Positions 1-11,586 of a stretch of DNA of 12,685 bases are shown in pieces (position 1 is the stretch's first letter; each line of letters opens with the position of its first letter). The position numbers were made by a program, and so were the translations under genes. Source of the DNA: a bacterium (lineage in GTDB: Bacteria; ARS69); the NCBI GenBank assembly GCA_025774805.1, contig JALGZR010000113.1, positions 1-12,685 of the forward strand, in the 5' to 3' direction. The notes under the pieces are model-generated. The model was not told the DNA's origin. It worked only from the letters and a program-made list of their open reading frames with translations, and made no database searches.

Positions 1-56
1 TCCTCATCTTCTGGGGGATGGGGATCCTCACTATCAAGGTCTGGAGGCGGGGCTAG
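1..56 (+). CDS. C-terminal end of an upstream phage protein (partial)
   Basis: Frame 3 is open from the window edge to a TAG at 54-56. It encodes only 17 residues, LIFWGMGILTIKVWRRG. The hydrophobic run followed by a basic end (KVWRRG) looks like a membrane segment with a cytoplasmic tail, but too little is present to name a family. Its stop codon shares one base with the GTG start of the next gene, so it belongs to the same transcription unit as the structural genes that follow. It could equally be the hydrophobic end of a soluble protein. Confidence 0.5.
   Translation, partial: LIFWGMGILTIKVWRRG
43..47 (+). promoter_or_regulatory. Ribosome binding site supporting a GTG start
   Basis: GGAGG lies 8 nt before the GTG at 56-58. 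It decides the start of the 539-aa structural protein, whose frame has no ATG nearby and whose first residues (MAEIW) resemble the start of the later fibre-like protein (MAETW). Confidence 0.6.
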
Positions 57-2408: not shown

Positions 2409-3737
2409 ATGGCGGAAACCTGGTACGCGAGAGATTCGGCGGCGCCCCTGGCTTGTGGGCCGGGGACGCGGAAGAACCTCTCCGAGACCGTCGGGTCAAG
2501 CACCAAGGCCCTCCGGCTCGACGGCACCGGGGACACATGGAACAAGGCCGAATCCAGGACCATCGCGGCGGGCGACTGGCGGGTCGCGATGGTCCTGGAC
2601 ACCGACTCGGGAGGCGGCCCCCAGAATCGGGTCAACGTTCTGGTCCAGCGGGTCAATTCCTCTTGCACGGTCCAGGGATCCGACATCATCAACGAGACCA
2701 TCGACGTCACCAAGGGGGACTCTGGGAAGACCTACTTCACGACCCTCCCCAACGACCCCGGGGAGATCACCTTCGCCGCCGGCGACGGCGTCCTCGTCAC
2801 CTTTACCGATACCAATGGCAACCAGTGGAAGGACGTCAAGTACGACGGCGGGGTCGGCGGGAATACGAGCCTCGTCCATCCCGACGAGGCGACCGGGCCC
2901 GAGCTCCAGGACGTCGGCGACGCCACGGTCTCCCCCACGGGCGCCCTCGCGACGGTCTTCACCCAGGCCCAGGCCGTCGGCGGGGCCACGGCCAGCCCGA
3001 CGGGCGGCGTCTCCAAGAAGGTCTTTTGGCCGGAATTCGGAGCGGGGCCTCCTCCGACCCCGTTCATCCTCAACCCGACGGGCTCCCTCGGGACGGTCTA
3101 CCGCCAGGCCCAGGCCGTCGGCGGCCATACCGTCCTCAACTCATTCGGGACGGTAGTCAAAAAGACATCGAAGACGGCCGGCGGGGCGACGGTCTCACCC
3201 ACGGGGGACCTCACGCCGGTCAAGCTCGGGATCGCCGAGCAAGCAACGGGCGGCTTCACGATGGCCCCCGTCGCGAGCCTCATGACGACCTTCGAGCAAA
3301 ACAAGAGCGTCGGGGGCTACACCGTCCTCGTCTCGGGGGCCCTCTCCACGGCCCTCATCCAGGCCGAGGCCGTCGGGGGCTTTACGGTCGCCCCGACGGG
3401 CGCCCTCACGACCCATAAATGGCACGGCGCCTATGGCCGGCCCATGTACCTCCTCGACCCGACCCTCTACGACCCGGCCGCGGTTATCGAATTCGAGGCC
3501 GTCCTCAAGACCGACGCGGGGACCGCCCGGGCCCGCCTCTGGAATATCACCGACGGGATCCCCGTCCCCGGCTCCGAGGTCACCGCGACCGAGACGACCT
3601 TCACCCGCAAGCGGAGCGCGGCCCTCACTCTCCCGGCGGCCGCCAAGGAGTACCAGGCCCAGCTCGGGAATGACGAGGGGAACACGACCACGGGCGACGG
3701 CGCCGGGCTCATCGTCCGCCAGGGGACGCCGTCATGA
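2409..3737 (+). CDS. Repeat-containing tail fibre or receptor-binding-like protein
   Basis: A 442-residue protein starting at ATG, with GGAG-type sequence inside the end of the previous gene. Three regions can be seen. Residues 1-168 are beta-rich with one short aromatic-poor core (GDWRVAMVLDTDS, then a FAAGDGVLVTFTDTNG strand pair). Residues 169-337 hold about eight degenerate repeats of about 20 residues with consensus VGG-x-T-V-x-P-TGAL-x-T. Residues 338-442 form a beta-sandwich-like module (AVIEFEAVLKTDAGTARARLWN, VPGSEVTATETTF) similar to C-terminal domains of phage appendage proteins. The architecture of a rod-like repeat stalk plus a terminal globular module suggests a fibre or receptor-binding protein; binding specificity cannot be read. 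Its last codon overlaps the next ATG by 4 nt (ATGA), linking the virion and lysis genes translationally. Confidence 0.7.
   Translation: MAETWYARDSAAPLACGPGTRKNLSETVGSSTKALRLDGTGDTWNKAESRTIAAGDWRVAMVLDTDSGGGPQNRVNVLVQRVNSSCTVQGSDIINETIDVTKGDSGKTYFTTLPNDPGEITFAAGDGVLVTFTDTNGNQWKDVKYDGGVGGNTSLVHPDEATGPELQDVGDATVSPTGALATVFTQAQAVGGATASPTGGVSKKVFWPEFGAGPPPTPFILNPTGSLGTVYRQAQAVGGHTVLNSFGTVVKKTSKTAGGATVSPTGDLTPVKLGIAEQATGGFTMAPVASLMTTFEQNKSVGGYTVLVSGALSTALIQAEAVGGFTVAPTGALTTHKWHGAYGRPMYLLDPTLYDPAAVIEFEAVLKTDAGTARARLWNITDGIPVPGSEVTATETTFTRKRSAALTLPAAAKEYQAQLGNDEGNTTTGDGAGLIVRQGTPS
2913..3419 (+). repeat. Tandem degenerate ~20-aa coding repeats
   Basis: Within the fibre-like gene, residues 169-337 can be split into about eight units that begin with VGG/AGG/TGG, continue T-V-x-P-TG-x-L, and often end in QAQA or QAEA. 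Unit two carries a Pro/Phe-rich insertion. At DNA level a 21-nt block is exact at 2963-2983 and 3104-3124, so duplication is still partly visible, while other units have diverged. This looks like a repeat stalk that can change length by recombination. Confidence 0.75.
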
Positions 3738-6906: not shown

Positions 6907-8112
6907 ATGGCACCATCGAAACCGACGACCGCCCTCGCCAGGGTCGAGGACCTCCCCCAGGAGGCCCTCGCCAACATCGAGGAGCTCACCGACCGGCTCC
7001 AGGCCCTCCAGGCCCGGGTCAACCTGGTCTCTCCCATCGCCCAGGTCGACTCGATTCTCCCCATGCACAAGGTAAGCCTCCGGGCCGTCGTCCTCGACCC
7101 GACGCCCGACGGGGGGGACGTCTACCAGGACCGGCGATTCTGCAAAGACCAGGAGCGGGCCCTCAACAAGAACGCCCTCATGCGGATCATGGGAGCGGCC
7201 GGCGCCCAGCTCCTCGAGACCGTCCGGGAGGACGACCGATCGGATCCCTACTACGCCGAGGTCTCCATCACCATCGGCGTCCGGGATTTCGACGGGACGA
7301 CCCGGACCATGAAGGCCCGCAAGGAGACCGACCTCCGGGATGGAGCTCCGGAGACCATGAAGCCGGAGTGGGAGAAACAAGGCCAGCGCAACGTCAAGAC
7401 CGGGAAGACCGTCCCCCTCGAGCCCTCGGCCCTGGCGGAGAAACGGCGCCACATCCTCCCCAACACCGAGACCAAGGCCCTCGAGCGAGCCCTTCGGGCC
7501 ATGTTCTCCCTCAAGCACAAGTACACGGTCGACGAGCTCGCCAAGCCCTTCGTCGTCCCCAAGCTCGTCCCGGCCCTGGACCCGAGCGACCCCGACCAGA
7601 AGCGGGCCCTCATCGCCCAGGCCAGCGGGGCGGATATGACCCTCTTCGGGTCGGCCAACGTCGCCGGCGCCATCTCGAGCGAGCCCTCGCCGGAGGCCCT
7701 CGCCGGCGCCGGCCAGGCCCAGCTCACCGCCGGGGTCGACCCAGCGGCCCCCGATGGCGAGAAGACGGTCAAGACCGTCGTCGACACCAACACGGGGGAG
7801 GTCCTCGAGAGCGAGACCATCCCGGCGGGGAGTGTCAACGTTGACACCCTCGAGGCCCCGCCTCCCCAGGAGGCTCCCCCGGTTTGCACCTGTCCCTGCG
7901 GCCATGAGGAGCCCGTCACCAAGCCCGTCGCCGAGGCGACCATCGCCAACGCCGGGGCGCCTCGATGCGCCGCCTGTTACCCCTGGAATGCTCGATTCGA
8001 CGCCAAGGGCCATCTCAAGCTCAAGGACCTCGGGCTCCCCAAGCGCCCGGGCTACACGGCGAAGGACGCCATCGCCTGGGCCAAGGAGAAGGCGAAAGGG
8101 GGCTCCCGATGA
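6907..8112 (+). CDS. Putative single-strand-annealing type recombination protein with C-terminal Cys/His cluster
   Basis: A 401-residue protein; the ATG has AGGAG upstream at 6895-6899. After a short helix (about 25-45) comes a mixed alpha/beta core. It contains MHKVSLRAVVLDP, a NKNALMRIMGAAGAQLLE helix, the strand YYAEVSITIGVRDFDG, and then KRRHILPNTETKALERALR (179-197) followed by KYTVDELAKPFVVPKLVP. A block of the type 'ETKA-x-x-RA-x-R ... KPFVVP' recurs in phage proteins next to SbcD/Rad50 genes, and an 'ETKA..RALR' helix is typical of ERF/RecT/Rad52-like annealing families. The assignment is by pattern and context, not by a certain match. The C-terminal 80 residues hold Cys327, 329, 331, His333, Cys354 and Cys357, a probable zinc site, then a basic helix-forming tail. 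It would bind single-stranded ends made by the following nuclease pair. Confidence 0.6.
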   Translation: MAPSKPTTALARVEDLPQEALANIEELTDRLQALQARVNLVSPIAQVDSILPMHKVSLRAVVLDPTPDGGDVYQDRRFCKDQERALNKNALMRIMGAAGAQLLETVREDDRSDPYYAEVSITIGVRDFDGTTRTMKARKETDLRDGAPETMKPEWEKQGQRNVKTGKTVPLEPSALAEKRRHILPNTETKALERALRAMFSLKHKYTVDELAKPFVVPKLVPALDPSDPDQKRALIAQASGADMTLFGSANVAGAISSEPSPEALAGAGQAQLTAGVDPAAPDGEKTVKTVVDTNTGEVLESETIPAGSVNVDTLEAPPPQEAPPVCTCPCGHEEPVTKPVAEATIANAGAPRCAACYPWNARFDAKGHLKLKDLGLPKRPGYTAKDAIAWAKEKAKGGSR

Positions 8113-9341
8113 GAATCGCCCACATCTCCGATTCCCATTTCGACGAGCGGGGCCGGCTCAAGGACGACATCCTCCTCCATGAGGCCTTCCTCAACCAGGC
8201 CCTCGAGGAGGGGGTCGACCTCATCCTCCACACGGGGGACCTCTTCGAGCGGCGGTCCACGCCGGCCGAGCGCCTGGCGGTCAAGGCCTTCTTCGAGGCC
8301 GCGGCCGAGGTCGCCCAGGTCGTCCTCGTCAAGGGCAACCATGAGGCCCAGCTCGACGTCGACCTCTGGCATCAACTGAGGGACACCGGCCGGCGGGTCC
8401 ACGTCATCACCGGGGCGGTCGGGGCGACCCCTGGCTCGGCCCACATCCTCAACGTCAAGGCGACGCCCCCGATCGGGATCCTGGGGCTCCCCTGGTTTGA
8501 CAAGGCCCATCTCGTCGCCCAGCTCGGGGCCCAGGTCTCCCAGGAGAAGACCCGCCAGCTCACCATCGCCACGGCCGGGAAGCTCCTCGCCGGCTACGTC
8601 GCCGAGGCCAACCGGCTCCGGGACGAGGGGATCGTCCCCATCATGGGCGCCCATGTCCTGGTCCAGGGGAGCGAGGTCTCGAGCGGTCAAACCCTCATCG
8701 GGACGACCGTCGAGCTCGCCCCCGGCGACCTCCTCGACATCCCGGCGGCCTACATCGGCCTCGGCCATGTCCACAAGACCCAGACCTGGGAGGGCGGCCG
8801 GATGGCCTACGCCGGGAGCCCGAAACGATGCAATTTCGGCGAGCCCGAGGCCAAGGGATGGCGGCTCATCGAGATCCTCCACGCCACGGAAGGCCGGGTC
8901 CTGGGCGGCGGGACAATGGTCAGCGAGACCATCACCAACGAATTCCGGGCCCTCCCGGCTCGGCCGATGATCCGGGAGCTCATCTCGGCCGAGGCCGCCA
9001 GCTCTATCAGCGGCGAGCGCCTCCGGGAGCAACGGGCGGACCTCATCGGGGCCATCGTCCGGGTCCGCTACGAGGGGAGCGAGGAGATCCTCGCCCTCAT
9101 CGACAAGGAGGTCGTCGAGAAGGCCTACCTCCACGCCGGCGCCGAGGAGGTCAAGGTCGAGCCCATCCTCGAGGACAAAAAGGCCGTCCGGGTCCAGGAG
9201 GTCCGGGAGGCCGGCTCGGTCGCCGACAAGGCGGTCGTCTTCTGGAATGCCAAGGGGCTCGAGCTCCATGAGCCCTGCGAGGAGGAGCTCCGCAGCAAGA
9301 TCGAGCGGCTCGAGGAGGAGGCCCGCCATGAGGCTCAATAA
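8109..9341 (+). CDS. sbcD: SbcD/Mre11-like DNA nuclease (calcineurin-like metallophosphoesterase)
   Basis: A 410-residue protein coupled by ATGA to the preceding gene. All phosphoesterase motifs are present: I DSH (Asp8, His10), II GDLFE (Asp44), III GNHE (Asn77, His78), IV GAHVL (His182) and V GHVH (His220, His222). These bind two metal ions, usually Mn, that cut DNA. A capping-domain-like region follows (about 250-350), and the last part ends in a charged helix that could contact the partner coiled coil. Its length fits SbcD/Mre11 and phage T4 gp47. It acts with the Rad50-like ATPase encoded next, whose start lies 14 nt inside this gene. Together they open and resect DNA ends and hairpins. 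The phage copy probably feeds recombination-dependent replication or removes blocked ends. Confidence 0.93.
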   Translation: MRIAHISDSHFDERGRLKDDILLHEAFLNQALEEGVDLILHTGDLFERRSTPAERLAVKAFFEAAAEVAQVVLVKGNHEAQLDVDLWHQLRDTGRRVHVITGAVGATPGSAHILNVKATPPIGILGLPWFDKAHLVAQLGAQVSQEKTRQLTIATAGKLLAGYVAEANRLRDEGIVPIMGAHVLVQGSEVSSGQTLIGTTVELAPGDLLDIPAAYIGLGHVHKTQTWEGGRMAYAGSPKRCNFGEPEAKGWRLIEILHATEGRVLGGGTMVSETITNEFRALPARPMIRELISAEAASSISGERLREQRADLIGAIVRVRYEGSEEILALIDKEVVEKAYLHAGAEEVKVEPILEDKKAVRVQEVREAGSVADKAVVFWNAKGLELHEPCEEELRSKIERLEEEARHEAQ

Positions 9342-11586
9342 GCTCGCCGTCAAGGGGGTCACCCGATTCGAGCGGGACGTCGTCCTCGACCTCGCCCAGC
9401 TCGGCCCGGGGCTCATCGCGGTCATCGGGGCCAACGGGGAGGGGAAGACGACCCTTATGGAGGCCACGCCGGCCCTCCTCTACGGATCCTTCCCCTCGAG
9501 GCCCGGCCATCTCACGGCCCACGCCCACGGCCCGGACGCCTACATCGAGGCGACCTTCACCCACGACAACGGATTCCAGACCCGGGAGCTCAAGGCCCGC
9601 GTCCTCATCGACGCCGACAAGCGTCGGCTCGAGCCCTATCTCTTCGAGCTCGACGGCGCCGGCAAGTGGACGACCCTCACGTCCGGCCGGGCGGCGGAGT
9701 ACAAGCTCGAGATCCAGCGCCGATTCGGCTCGGAGGGTCTTTTCCTGGCGTCGGTTTTCGCGGCCCAGGACAAGGCGGGGAATTTCCTCGGCCTCAAGCG
9801 GACCGCCCGGATGGAGCTCTTCGCCGAGCTCCTCCACCTGGGCTATATCCAGGAGCTCCAGGTCCTCGCCAAGGGCCATCTCGACAAGGAGCTCGAGCGC
9901 CTGGCCCTGGTCGTCAACCGGATCGGCGACCTCGAGCGGGACCTCGAGGGGCGGCCCGACCTCGAGAAGCGCCTCGAGCTCGCCCAGCTCCAGGTCGACG
10001 CCGACACCCAGCTCGTCGAGGAGCGGGAGGCCAAGCTCGAGGAGGACCTCGTCGCCCTCGACCGAGCGAAGACCGCCCTCAAGAGCATCGAGACCTTCGA
10101 CAAGGCGGCCATCGAGGCCGTCGCCGGCGCCGAGGAGGGCCGGAAACGGGTCGAGCGGGCCGGCGGCCTGGTCGGCCGGCTCGAGGCCCGCAAGGCCAAG
10201 CTCCCGGATAAAATCGAGAATGTCACCGGGGCGGCCAACCGAGAGCTCGAGCGATTTACCCGGGAGAAGGACGAGCTCGAGACCAGGCCCAAGGCGACGG
10301 TCCCCCAGACCGTCGGCCTCGCCCAGGTCGAGGAGGAGCTCGCGACCCAGATCCTCGAGAAGAATCGGCTCCTCGAGGTCCGGCGGGCCTACGACATCCA
10401 GGAGGCCGAGCGGGACGCGGCAACCAGGACGGCCGACCTCCTCGATGAGGCCCCCTGCGTAAAATCGCCCATGTGGGCCCGCGTCGTCGAGGGCGAGGGC
10501 CAACGGATCGAGGACCTGGCGGGGACCTGTCCCCTCCTCGAGGAGGCCCAGAAGGCCAACAAGCTCCTCGGGACCGCGGCGACCATCGACGACCCGGTCG
10601 AGGACCTCGACGCCGTCATCCGGCGGGTCGACGAGCTCAACGCCTGGAGGGACGAGCTCAAGGCCAACGAGGGGATCGACCGGCTCATCGCCGACAACAA
10701 GCTCCAGGCCGAGGGGGTCACCAAGCGCCTCGAGGCCTTCCTCCAGGAGACCGAGGAGGAGGCCCGGACCATCAACGAGGAGCTCGCGGCCGCCATCCTC
10801 GAGCGGGACCTGGCGGTCGGCGACACCCAGGAGCTCGAGCGCAAGCGGGACACGGCCGTCGCCCAGCGGGAGACCCAGGTCGCCTTCATCGGCGCCCAGC
10901 CCGTCGGCAAGCTCGAGAGCTCCATCATCGTCGCCCGGGAGGAGATCCGGACGGCGAAGGCCCGGCTCGCCCGCGGGGAGCTCGCCAAGCTCCAGGTCCT
11001 CCTGCAGCAACTCGAGGACAAGGCCCGGGACCTCCAGGTCTCCCAGGACGAGCGGACCGGCGCCCAGCGGGAGGTCAAGGCCTGGAAGCTCATCGAGGAG
11101 GCCCTCGGCCGAGACGGGATCCAGGCCCTCGAGATCGACGCGGCCGGCCCCGAGGTCGCGAGCCTCACCAACGAGCTCCTCCGGGCCTGTTACGGCGCCC
11201 GGTTCTCCATCTCGTTTGAGACCCTCCGGGCCAAGCGGACGGGGGGCTTCTCCGAGGCCTTCGACGTCAAGGTCTACGACGGGGGCCAGGAGCGAGCGGC
11301 CGAGGCCATCTCGGGCGGCGAGAAGGTCATCATCTCCGAGGCGGTCGGGCTCGCGATCGCCATCTTCAACGCCCGCAAGAGCGGGATCCAATGGCGGACC
11401 CTCTGGCGGGACGAGACGGCGGGGGCCCTCTGGCCCGAGACCGCCCAGGCCTACGTCGCGATGTTACGGCGGGCCCGGGAGCTCGGGGGATTCGACCAGG
11501 TCCTCTTCGTCTCCCATCAACCCGAGGTCTGGGAAGCGGCCGACGTCCAGGCCCGGGTCGCCGGCGGGGAGGTCCGGCTCTCATGA
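9328..11586 (+). CDS. sbcC: SbcC/Rad50-like ATPase of the DNA-end-processing complex
   Basis: A 752-residue protein; GAGGAGGAGG lies before the ATG at 9328 and the gene overlaps the nuclease gene. The N-terminal ATPase half has Walker A GANGEGKTT (34-42) and a Q-loop at SVFAAQDK (Gln147). Coiled coil one spans about 175-370. The apex has Cys377 and Cys401, 23 residues apart (APC ... GTCPLL), instead of CxxC. Coiled coil two spans about 405-610. The C-terminal half has the signature ISGGEK (661-666), Walker B-like LWRDET (Asp695, Glu696) and an H-loop SHQ (His730). This is the full order of a Rad50/SbcC/T4 gp46 protein, shorter than the roughly 1000 residues of E. coli SbcC. It would dimerise on ATP, tether DNA ends and drive the SbcD-like nuclease. 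The apex cysteines lie near the middle of the protein, as expected for a hook. Confidence 0.93.
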   Translation: MRLNKLAVKGVTRFERDVVLDLAQLGPGLIAVIGANGEGKTTLMEATPALLYGSFPSRPGHLTAHAHGPDAYIEATFTHDNGFQTRELKARVLIDADKRRLEPYLFELDGAGKWTTLTSGRAAEYKLEIQRRFGSEGLFLASVFAAQDKAGNFLGLKRTARMELFAELLHLGYIQELQVLAKGHLDKELERLALVVNRIGDLERDLEGRPDLEKRLELAQLQVDADTQLVEEREAKLEEDLVALDRAKTALKSIETFDKAAIEAVAGAEEGRKRVERAGGLVGRLEARKAKLPDKIENVTGAANRELERFTREKDELETRPKATVPQTVGLAQVEEELATQILEKNRLLEVRRAYDIQEAERDAATRTADLLDEAPCVKSPMWARVVEGEGQRIEDLAGTCPLLEEAQKANKLLGTAATIDDPVEDLDAVIRRVDELNAWRDELKANEGIDRLIADNKLQAEGVTKRLEAFLQETEEEARTINEELAAAILERDLAVGDTQELERKRDTAVAQRETQVAFIGAQPVGKLESSIIVAREEIRTAKARLARGELAKLQVLLQQLEDKARDLQVSQDERTGAQREVKAWKLIEEALGRDGIQALEIDAAGPEVASLTNELLRACYGARFSISFETLRAKRTGGFSEAFDVKVYDGGQERAAEAISGGEKVIISEAVGLAIAIFNARKSGIQWRTLWRDETAGALWPETAQAYVAMLRRARELGGFDQVLFVSHQPEVWEAADVQARVAGGEVRLS

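Follow-up and report, generated by a model that had tools for sequence, protein, structure and literature searches.

The window, by which we mean the whole 12,685-nucleotide stretch of DNA analyzed here, is one entire contig (C76) of a 5.1-Mb assembly and carries adjoining genes for an SbcD/Mre11-like nuclease and an SbcC/Rad50-like protein. The SbcC-like frame starts at position 9328 and overlaps the 3′ end of the SbcD gene, the stop of which lies at 9341. Other genes of the window encode an M15-type endolysin and proteins with a weak holin match and weak matches to virion proteins, so the window most likely represents a contig of phage or prophage origin. The features of the two adjoining genes are as follows:

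8109-9341, + strand: SbcD/Mre11-like nuclease gene, 410 aa (Metallophos PF00149, E 1.1e-11; PHROG 100, SbcD-like, E 1.8e-16)
9328-11586, + strand: SbcC/Rad50-like gene, 752 aa, an open frame with an ATG start
9427-9450, + strand: Walker A, GANGEGKT, residues 34-41 (sequence motif)
10450-10557, + strand: whole apex motif, residues 375-410, [VA]PC-x23-C-P-L-L-x-x-A-x-x-A, holding the eight most conserved columns of the coil
10456-10458, + strand: Cys377, first hook cysteine, in the motif PC (97% conserved in alignment A3)
10474-10512, + strand: predicted β-hairpin between the cysteines, residues 383-395 (AlphaFold2; pLDDT 50-60 at full length, about 82-85 for the apex alone)
10528-10530, + strand: Cys401, second hook cysteine, in the motif CPLL (100% conserved in A3)
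11311-11322, + strand: ABC signature SGGE, residues 662-665 (sequence motif)
11401-11418, + strand: Walker B, LWRDET, residues 692-697 (sequence motif, typical of the family)

Upstream of SbcD, a 401-aa protein (6907-8112) matches PHROG 13782, a family of unknown function (E 3.8e-25), and has a Cys-rich stretch, CTCPCGH...CAAC, near its C-terminus. A predicted protein at 2409-3737 contains repeated VGG-T-x-SPTG-like segments and has no family match. We also note that the SbcD-like proteins of three plasmid loci (L002, L004, and L013) carry GTFSHEP in place of the GNHE motif of the window SbcD, possibly reflecting an altered nuclease active site.

The SbcC-like protein has a complete bipartite ABC ATPase head, with Walker A, a Q-loop, SGGE, and a Walker B ending in DE; Q147 of the Q-loop and the DE at 695-696 are invariant in the alignment with relatives. 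Pfam assigns AAA_23/AAA_27, and residues 1-733 match PHROG 77 (SbcC-like) at E 5.7e-39; all 35 aligned relatives also match PHROG 77. The preliminary description of this DNA had read the Walker B correctly as LWRDET and had called it unusual; among relatives, the commonest forms are FRDETAGAL and WRDETAGAL, making it the family norm. In a full-length AlphaFold2 model built from A3 (mean pLDDT 82), the protein is predicted to adopt a Rad50-like fold with a long antiparallel coiled coil between the head halves, and the best Foldseek match to this model is Rad50 (7zr1_C, E 6.7e-24), with phage G gp375 also matching. The adjoining Mre11/SbcD nuclease gene, a mark of the Rad50 family, is a regular companion, lying close to SbcC in 49 of 52 loci with the apex described below. 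Elsewhere in the window's own assembly (G000), no SbcC scored above the TIGR00618 cut-off, though 13 of 14 control genomes likewise fell below it, making this weak evidence of absence. The TIGR00618 matches seen there were rejected as SbcC, being short P-loop stretches only.

The distinctive part of the protein is its apex. It has three cysteines, at 377, 401, and 621, and no CXXC anywhere in its 752 residues; at the tip of the coiled coil there is instead a C-x23-C, within the segment (10441-10536, residues 372-403) to which the preliminary description had drawn attention as a replacement for the CXXC zinc hook. The 23 residues between Cys377 and Cys401 are VKSPMWARVVEGEGQRIEDLAGT. Their midpoint falls at residue 389 and the center of the protein at 376, so the cysteines are not at its exact middle, as had been stated. 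Two ways in which this apex might have proved illusory had been raised, namely that the cysteines lie far apart in a predicted apex and are not conserved in homologues, or that a frameshift hides a normal CXXC; both cysteines proved conserved, and we rejected the frameshift since relatives align in one frame on both sides of the apex. Neither the whole protein nor the apex matched the Pfam hook model PF04423 (Rad50_zn_hook) at E 1, a weak test given that a relative with CPTC itself scores only E 0.14. There is no histidine in the apex (345-435), and no third cysteine in its inter-cysteine loop.

Scans with a single sequence gave no matches in viral or genome contigs, and alignment queries were needed; these returned 54 and 46 viral loci (from partly overlapping contigs) and 79 genomic loci, while tblastn recovered similar proteins in Burkholderiales and Leptospira plasmids, Leptospira phage LE1, and Moorella phage MTATph1. 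Among the 12 relatives first read, 11 had VPC-x(n)-C-x-LL with n = 7, 8, or 13, the remaining one, phage G gp375, having CNFC. Overall, the pattern PC-x(7..34)-C-x-L-L-x-x-A, with small variations, is shared by 57 distinct proteins, the window protein among them, that come from phages, plasmids, and prophage-like contigs. This bears out the earlier suggestion of a distinct hook class built on a "PC ... C-x-L" pattern. In an alignment of the window protein with ten early relatives, P376, C377, C401, L403, L404, and A407 were invariant and nearly nothing else in that region was. A3 is an alignment of 36 sequences; when its 376 coil columns (residues 200-575) are ranked by conservation, the top eight, in order 401, 377, 403, 407, 376, 404, 375, and 410, all lie at the apex. 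The conservation of the apex cysteines exceeds chance, because the commonest residue in the median coil column reaches 28%, against 100% for C401 and 97% for C377.

The spacing between the cysteines is far less constant. Across the 57 proteins, the number of inter-cysteine residues is 7 in 3, 8 in 21, 9 in 4, 10-13 in 14, and 17-34 in 15. With 81% of their head residues in common, proteins L025 and L134 have loops of 34 and 24 residues; the window protein and L019, with 61% in common, have loops of 23 and 10. Judged from these sequences, loop length is free and quick to change among close relatives, with both cysteines kept. The window protein belongs to a long-loop subgroup with the motif PC-x5-W-x(n)-DLAGTCPLLADA, in which a Trp stands six residues past the first Cys in 23 of the 25 loci counted (some of them duplicate copies) and DLAGTC leads up to the second.

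In the full-length model, helices at 331-374 and 402-416 are separated by two short strands of low confidence, and C377 and C401 are placed between the helices. AlphaFold2 applied to the apex alone, with 38 sequences, predicted a helix-hairpin-helix (pLDDT 85) with strands at 383-387 and 391-395. The paired strand positions are symmetric about residue 389, with 383+395 = 387+391 = 778; since 377+401 gives the same sum, Cys377 and Cys401, as reckoned from strand register, are expected to stand opposite one another at the predicted hairpin's base. Structural comparison of the apex by VIA-align gave the Rad50 hook 1l8d at Z 6.4 and also listed Lamassu LmuB, both tied with prefoldins or other unrelated helical hairpins, and we therefore make no claim of fold from that list. 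A BFVD search with the apex model returned nothing at E 0.001, and PDB sequence matches to the apex profile (a designed PPR chain, keratins, and prefoldins) were judged to be chance.

In the known zinc hook, a CXXC motif in a short β-hairpin (PMC9569753) contributes to one Zn(Cys)4 site common to two Rad50s (PMC9569753, PMC5093744), and its conservation has been reported for Rad50 from archaea to humans "and even viruses" (PMC5093744). Relative to that hook (PF04423; P. furiosus 1L8D, human 5GOX), the split hook has its cysteines separated by 7-34 residues rather than two, an additional hairpin of variable length, and different flanks, PC...C-x-LL-x-x-A, which the Pfam hook model does not match. 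The phage SbcC-like proteins of PHROG 77 (phage G gp375, T4 gp46 type) fall in the same PHROG as the window protein, although gp375 has a normal CNFC hook, and the annotations found for PHROG 77 proteins make no mention of a spaced hook. The SbcC proteins of Leptospira phage LE1, a Leptospira plasmid, and Burkholderiales plasmids (annotated "SMC family ATPase") share the split apex and have SbcD adjoining, but their loop is shorter (13 or 8 residues) and lacks the conserved Trp, and they are only 21-26% identical to the window protein. The RloC anticodon nuclease (PMC2610378), likewise an ABC ATPase with a hook-bearing coiled coil, is zinc-responsive, but has a normal CXXC, an additional nuclease domain, and another function. 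We found no description in the open-access literature of hook cysteines spaced 7-34 apart. The split hook is a real and conserved form of hook within a known family of proteins and, as far as that literature can be searched, an undescribed one.

In trees built from 349 columns of the head domain, nearly all split-hook proteins fall into a single phage/plasmid clade. Within it, proteins from Treponema and viral contigs with a CPTC-type hook (L123, L132, L136, L120, L141, L143, L154, L140, L114, and others) form a sister group to the split-hook proteins L026/L059/L064, with support of 100/98. The CXXC group thus appears to be nested among split hooks, and an exchange between the two forms is likely but not firmer than that, because forcing all non-CPTC rows together cost 17.4 log units with an AU p of 0.085, so that the alternative to nesting is not rejected. 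Such nesting, with its split-hook sister group, suggests that the two hook forms may be able to stand in for each other. Also within the clade, L029 and L135 have the apices MCSACPLTADV and MCSECPAITDA, each a C-x2-C with the second Cys aligned with C401. A further 13-member clade of phage SbcC-like proteins within the split-hook clade (L034, L037, L039, L040, L043, L050, L052, L065, L116, L121, L122, L124, and L137) has neither PC...C-x-LL nor CXXC, both cysteines having been lost together; an SbcD gene is nearby in 12 of the 13. The MTATph1 and Sporomusa/Bacillota proteins with n = 7 branch outside the main split clade, so the split form could have an early origin or several independent ones.

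Our preferred reading, to which we assign a probability of roughly 0.6, is that the window protein serves a phage Mre11-Rad50 (SbcCD) nuclease as its Rad50 subunit and bears a split zinc hook, comprising an intermolecular Zn(Cys)4 site and an inserted hairpin. Each monomer would present a cysteine pair at its coiled-coil tip, flanking a β-hairpin of variable length rather than forming a single CXXC turn. The cysteine pairs of two monomers would then make up one common Zn(Cys)4 site joining the two SbcC arms, with the SbcD nuclease at the heads and the inserted hairpin reaching beyond the metal. The conservation and apex position of the cysteines, the variable length between them, and the neighboring SbcD, as in an ordinary Mre11-Rad50 pair, are observed; the hairpin and the facing cysteines are predicted; zinc, dimerization, and any role for the hairpin are what we infer. 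Since the window's apex has no histidine, its loop no third cysteine, and the family only two conserved ligands, four ligands could be assembled only from two monomers. Sequence by itself does not decide among a shared zinc, a disulfide, or some other cysteine chemistry, but the absence of other soft ligands favors a shared metal site.

The same pair might instead form an intramolecular C377-C401 disulfide, a covalent staple at the hairpin base that stiffens the tip and leaves any dimerization to other contacts. Two cysteines would suffice for this, the predicted register sets them opposite one another, and their joint loss in the Cys-less clade is consistent with it. However, the window SbcC is a cytoplasmic protein, stable disulfides are rare in the cytoplasm, and some family members have an apical CPTC or C-x2-C, both typical metal motifs; we regard the staple as unlikely. 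An intramolecular or other metal site, in which the two cysteines and acidic or other loop residues of one monomer form a small zinc-stabilized tip, would account for the conserved Trp and DLAGTC at the ends of the long loops. It is very unlikely on our reckoning, as no Cys, His, or acidic position within the loop is conserved across the family, and an extra Cys occurs in only 4 of 45 loops and a His in 13 of 45.

Dimerization could also depend chiefly on hairpin contacts and on the hydrophobic LL/A residues, as in a small SMC-type hinge, with the cysteines secondary. L403, L404, A407, and A410 are conserved as well, a clade without the cysteines exists, and the main task of the known hook is to link two arms, with an SMC hinge able to replace it in yeast (PMC6969161). 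Yet no coil residue is as conserved as the cysteines, and the 7-8 inter-cysteine residues of the shortest members are too few for a separate domain, which leaves this arrangement distinctly improbable. What counts against the split zinc hook itself is that one clade of relatives lacks apex cysteines altogether, so that the apex site is not essential in every such protein, that the CXXC group is only probably nested, and that the apex model resembles 1l8d no more closely than it does unrelated helical hairpins.

A more speculative proposal, which we consider rather doubtful, is that the hairpin acts as a fast-evolving specificity lock, by which phage and plasmid Rad50s would pair solely with their own kind and not with host SbcC, zinc providing the strength. 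If so, the hook would be clasp and key at once.

Collectively, these data suggest that the hook, so far regarded as uniform, exists in a second form that is undescribed. A lineage spread broadly over phages and plasmids has retained two apex cysteines but not their fixed distance, and in part of it the apex carries CXXC or lacks cysteines altogether; searches based on CXXC overlook hooks of phage SbcC proteins. The lineage thereby offers a natural series of split, CXXC, and cysteine-free apices on comparable heads, with which to ask what the hook is needed for: to hold zinc, to dimerize, or merely to close the arm.
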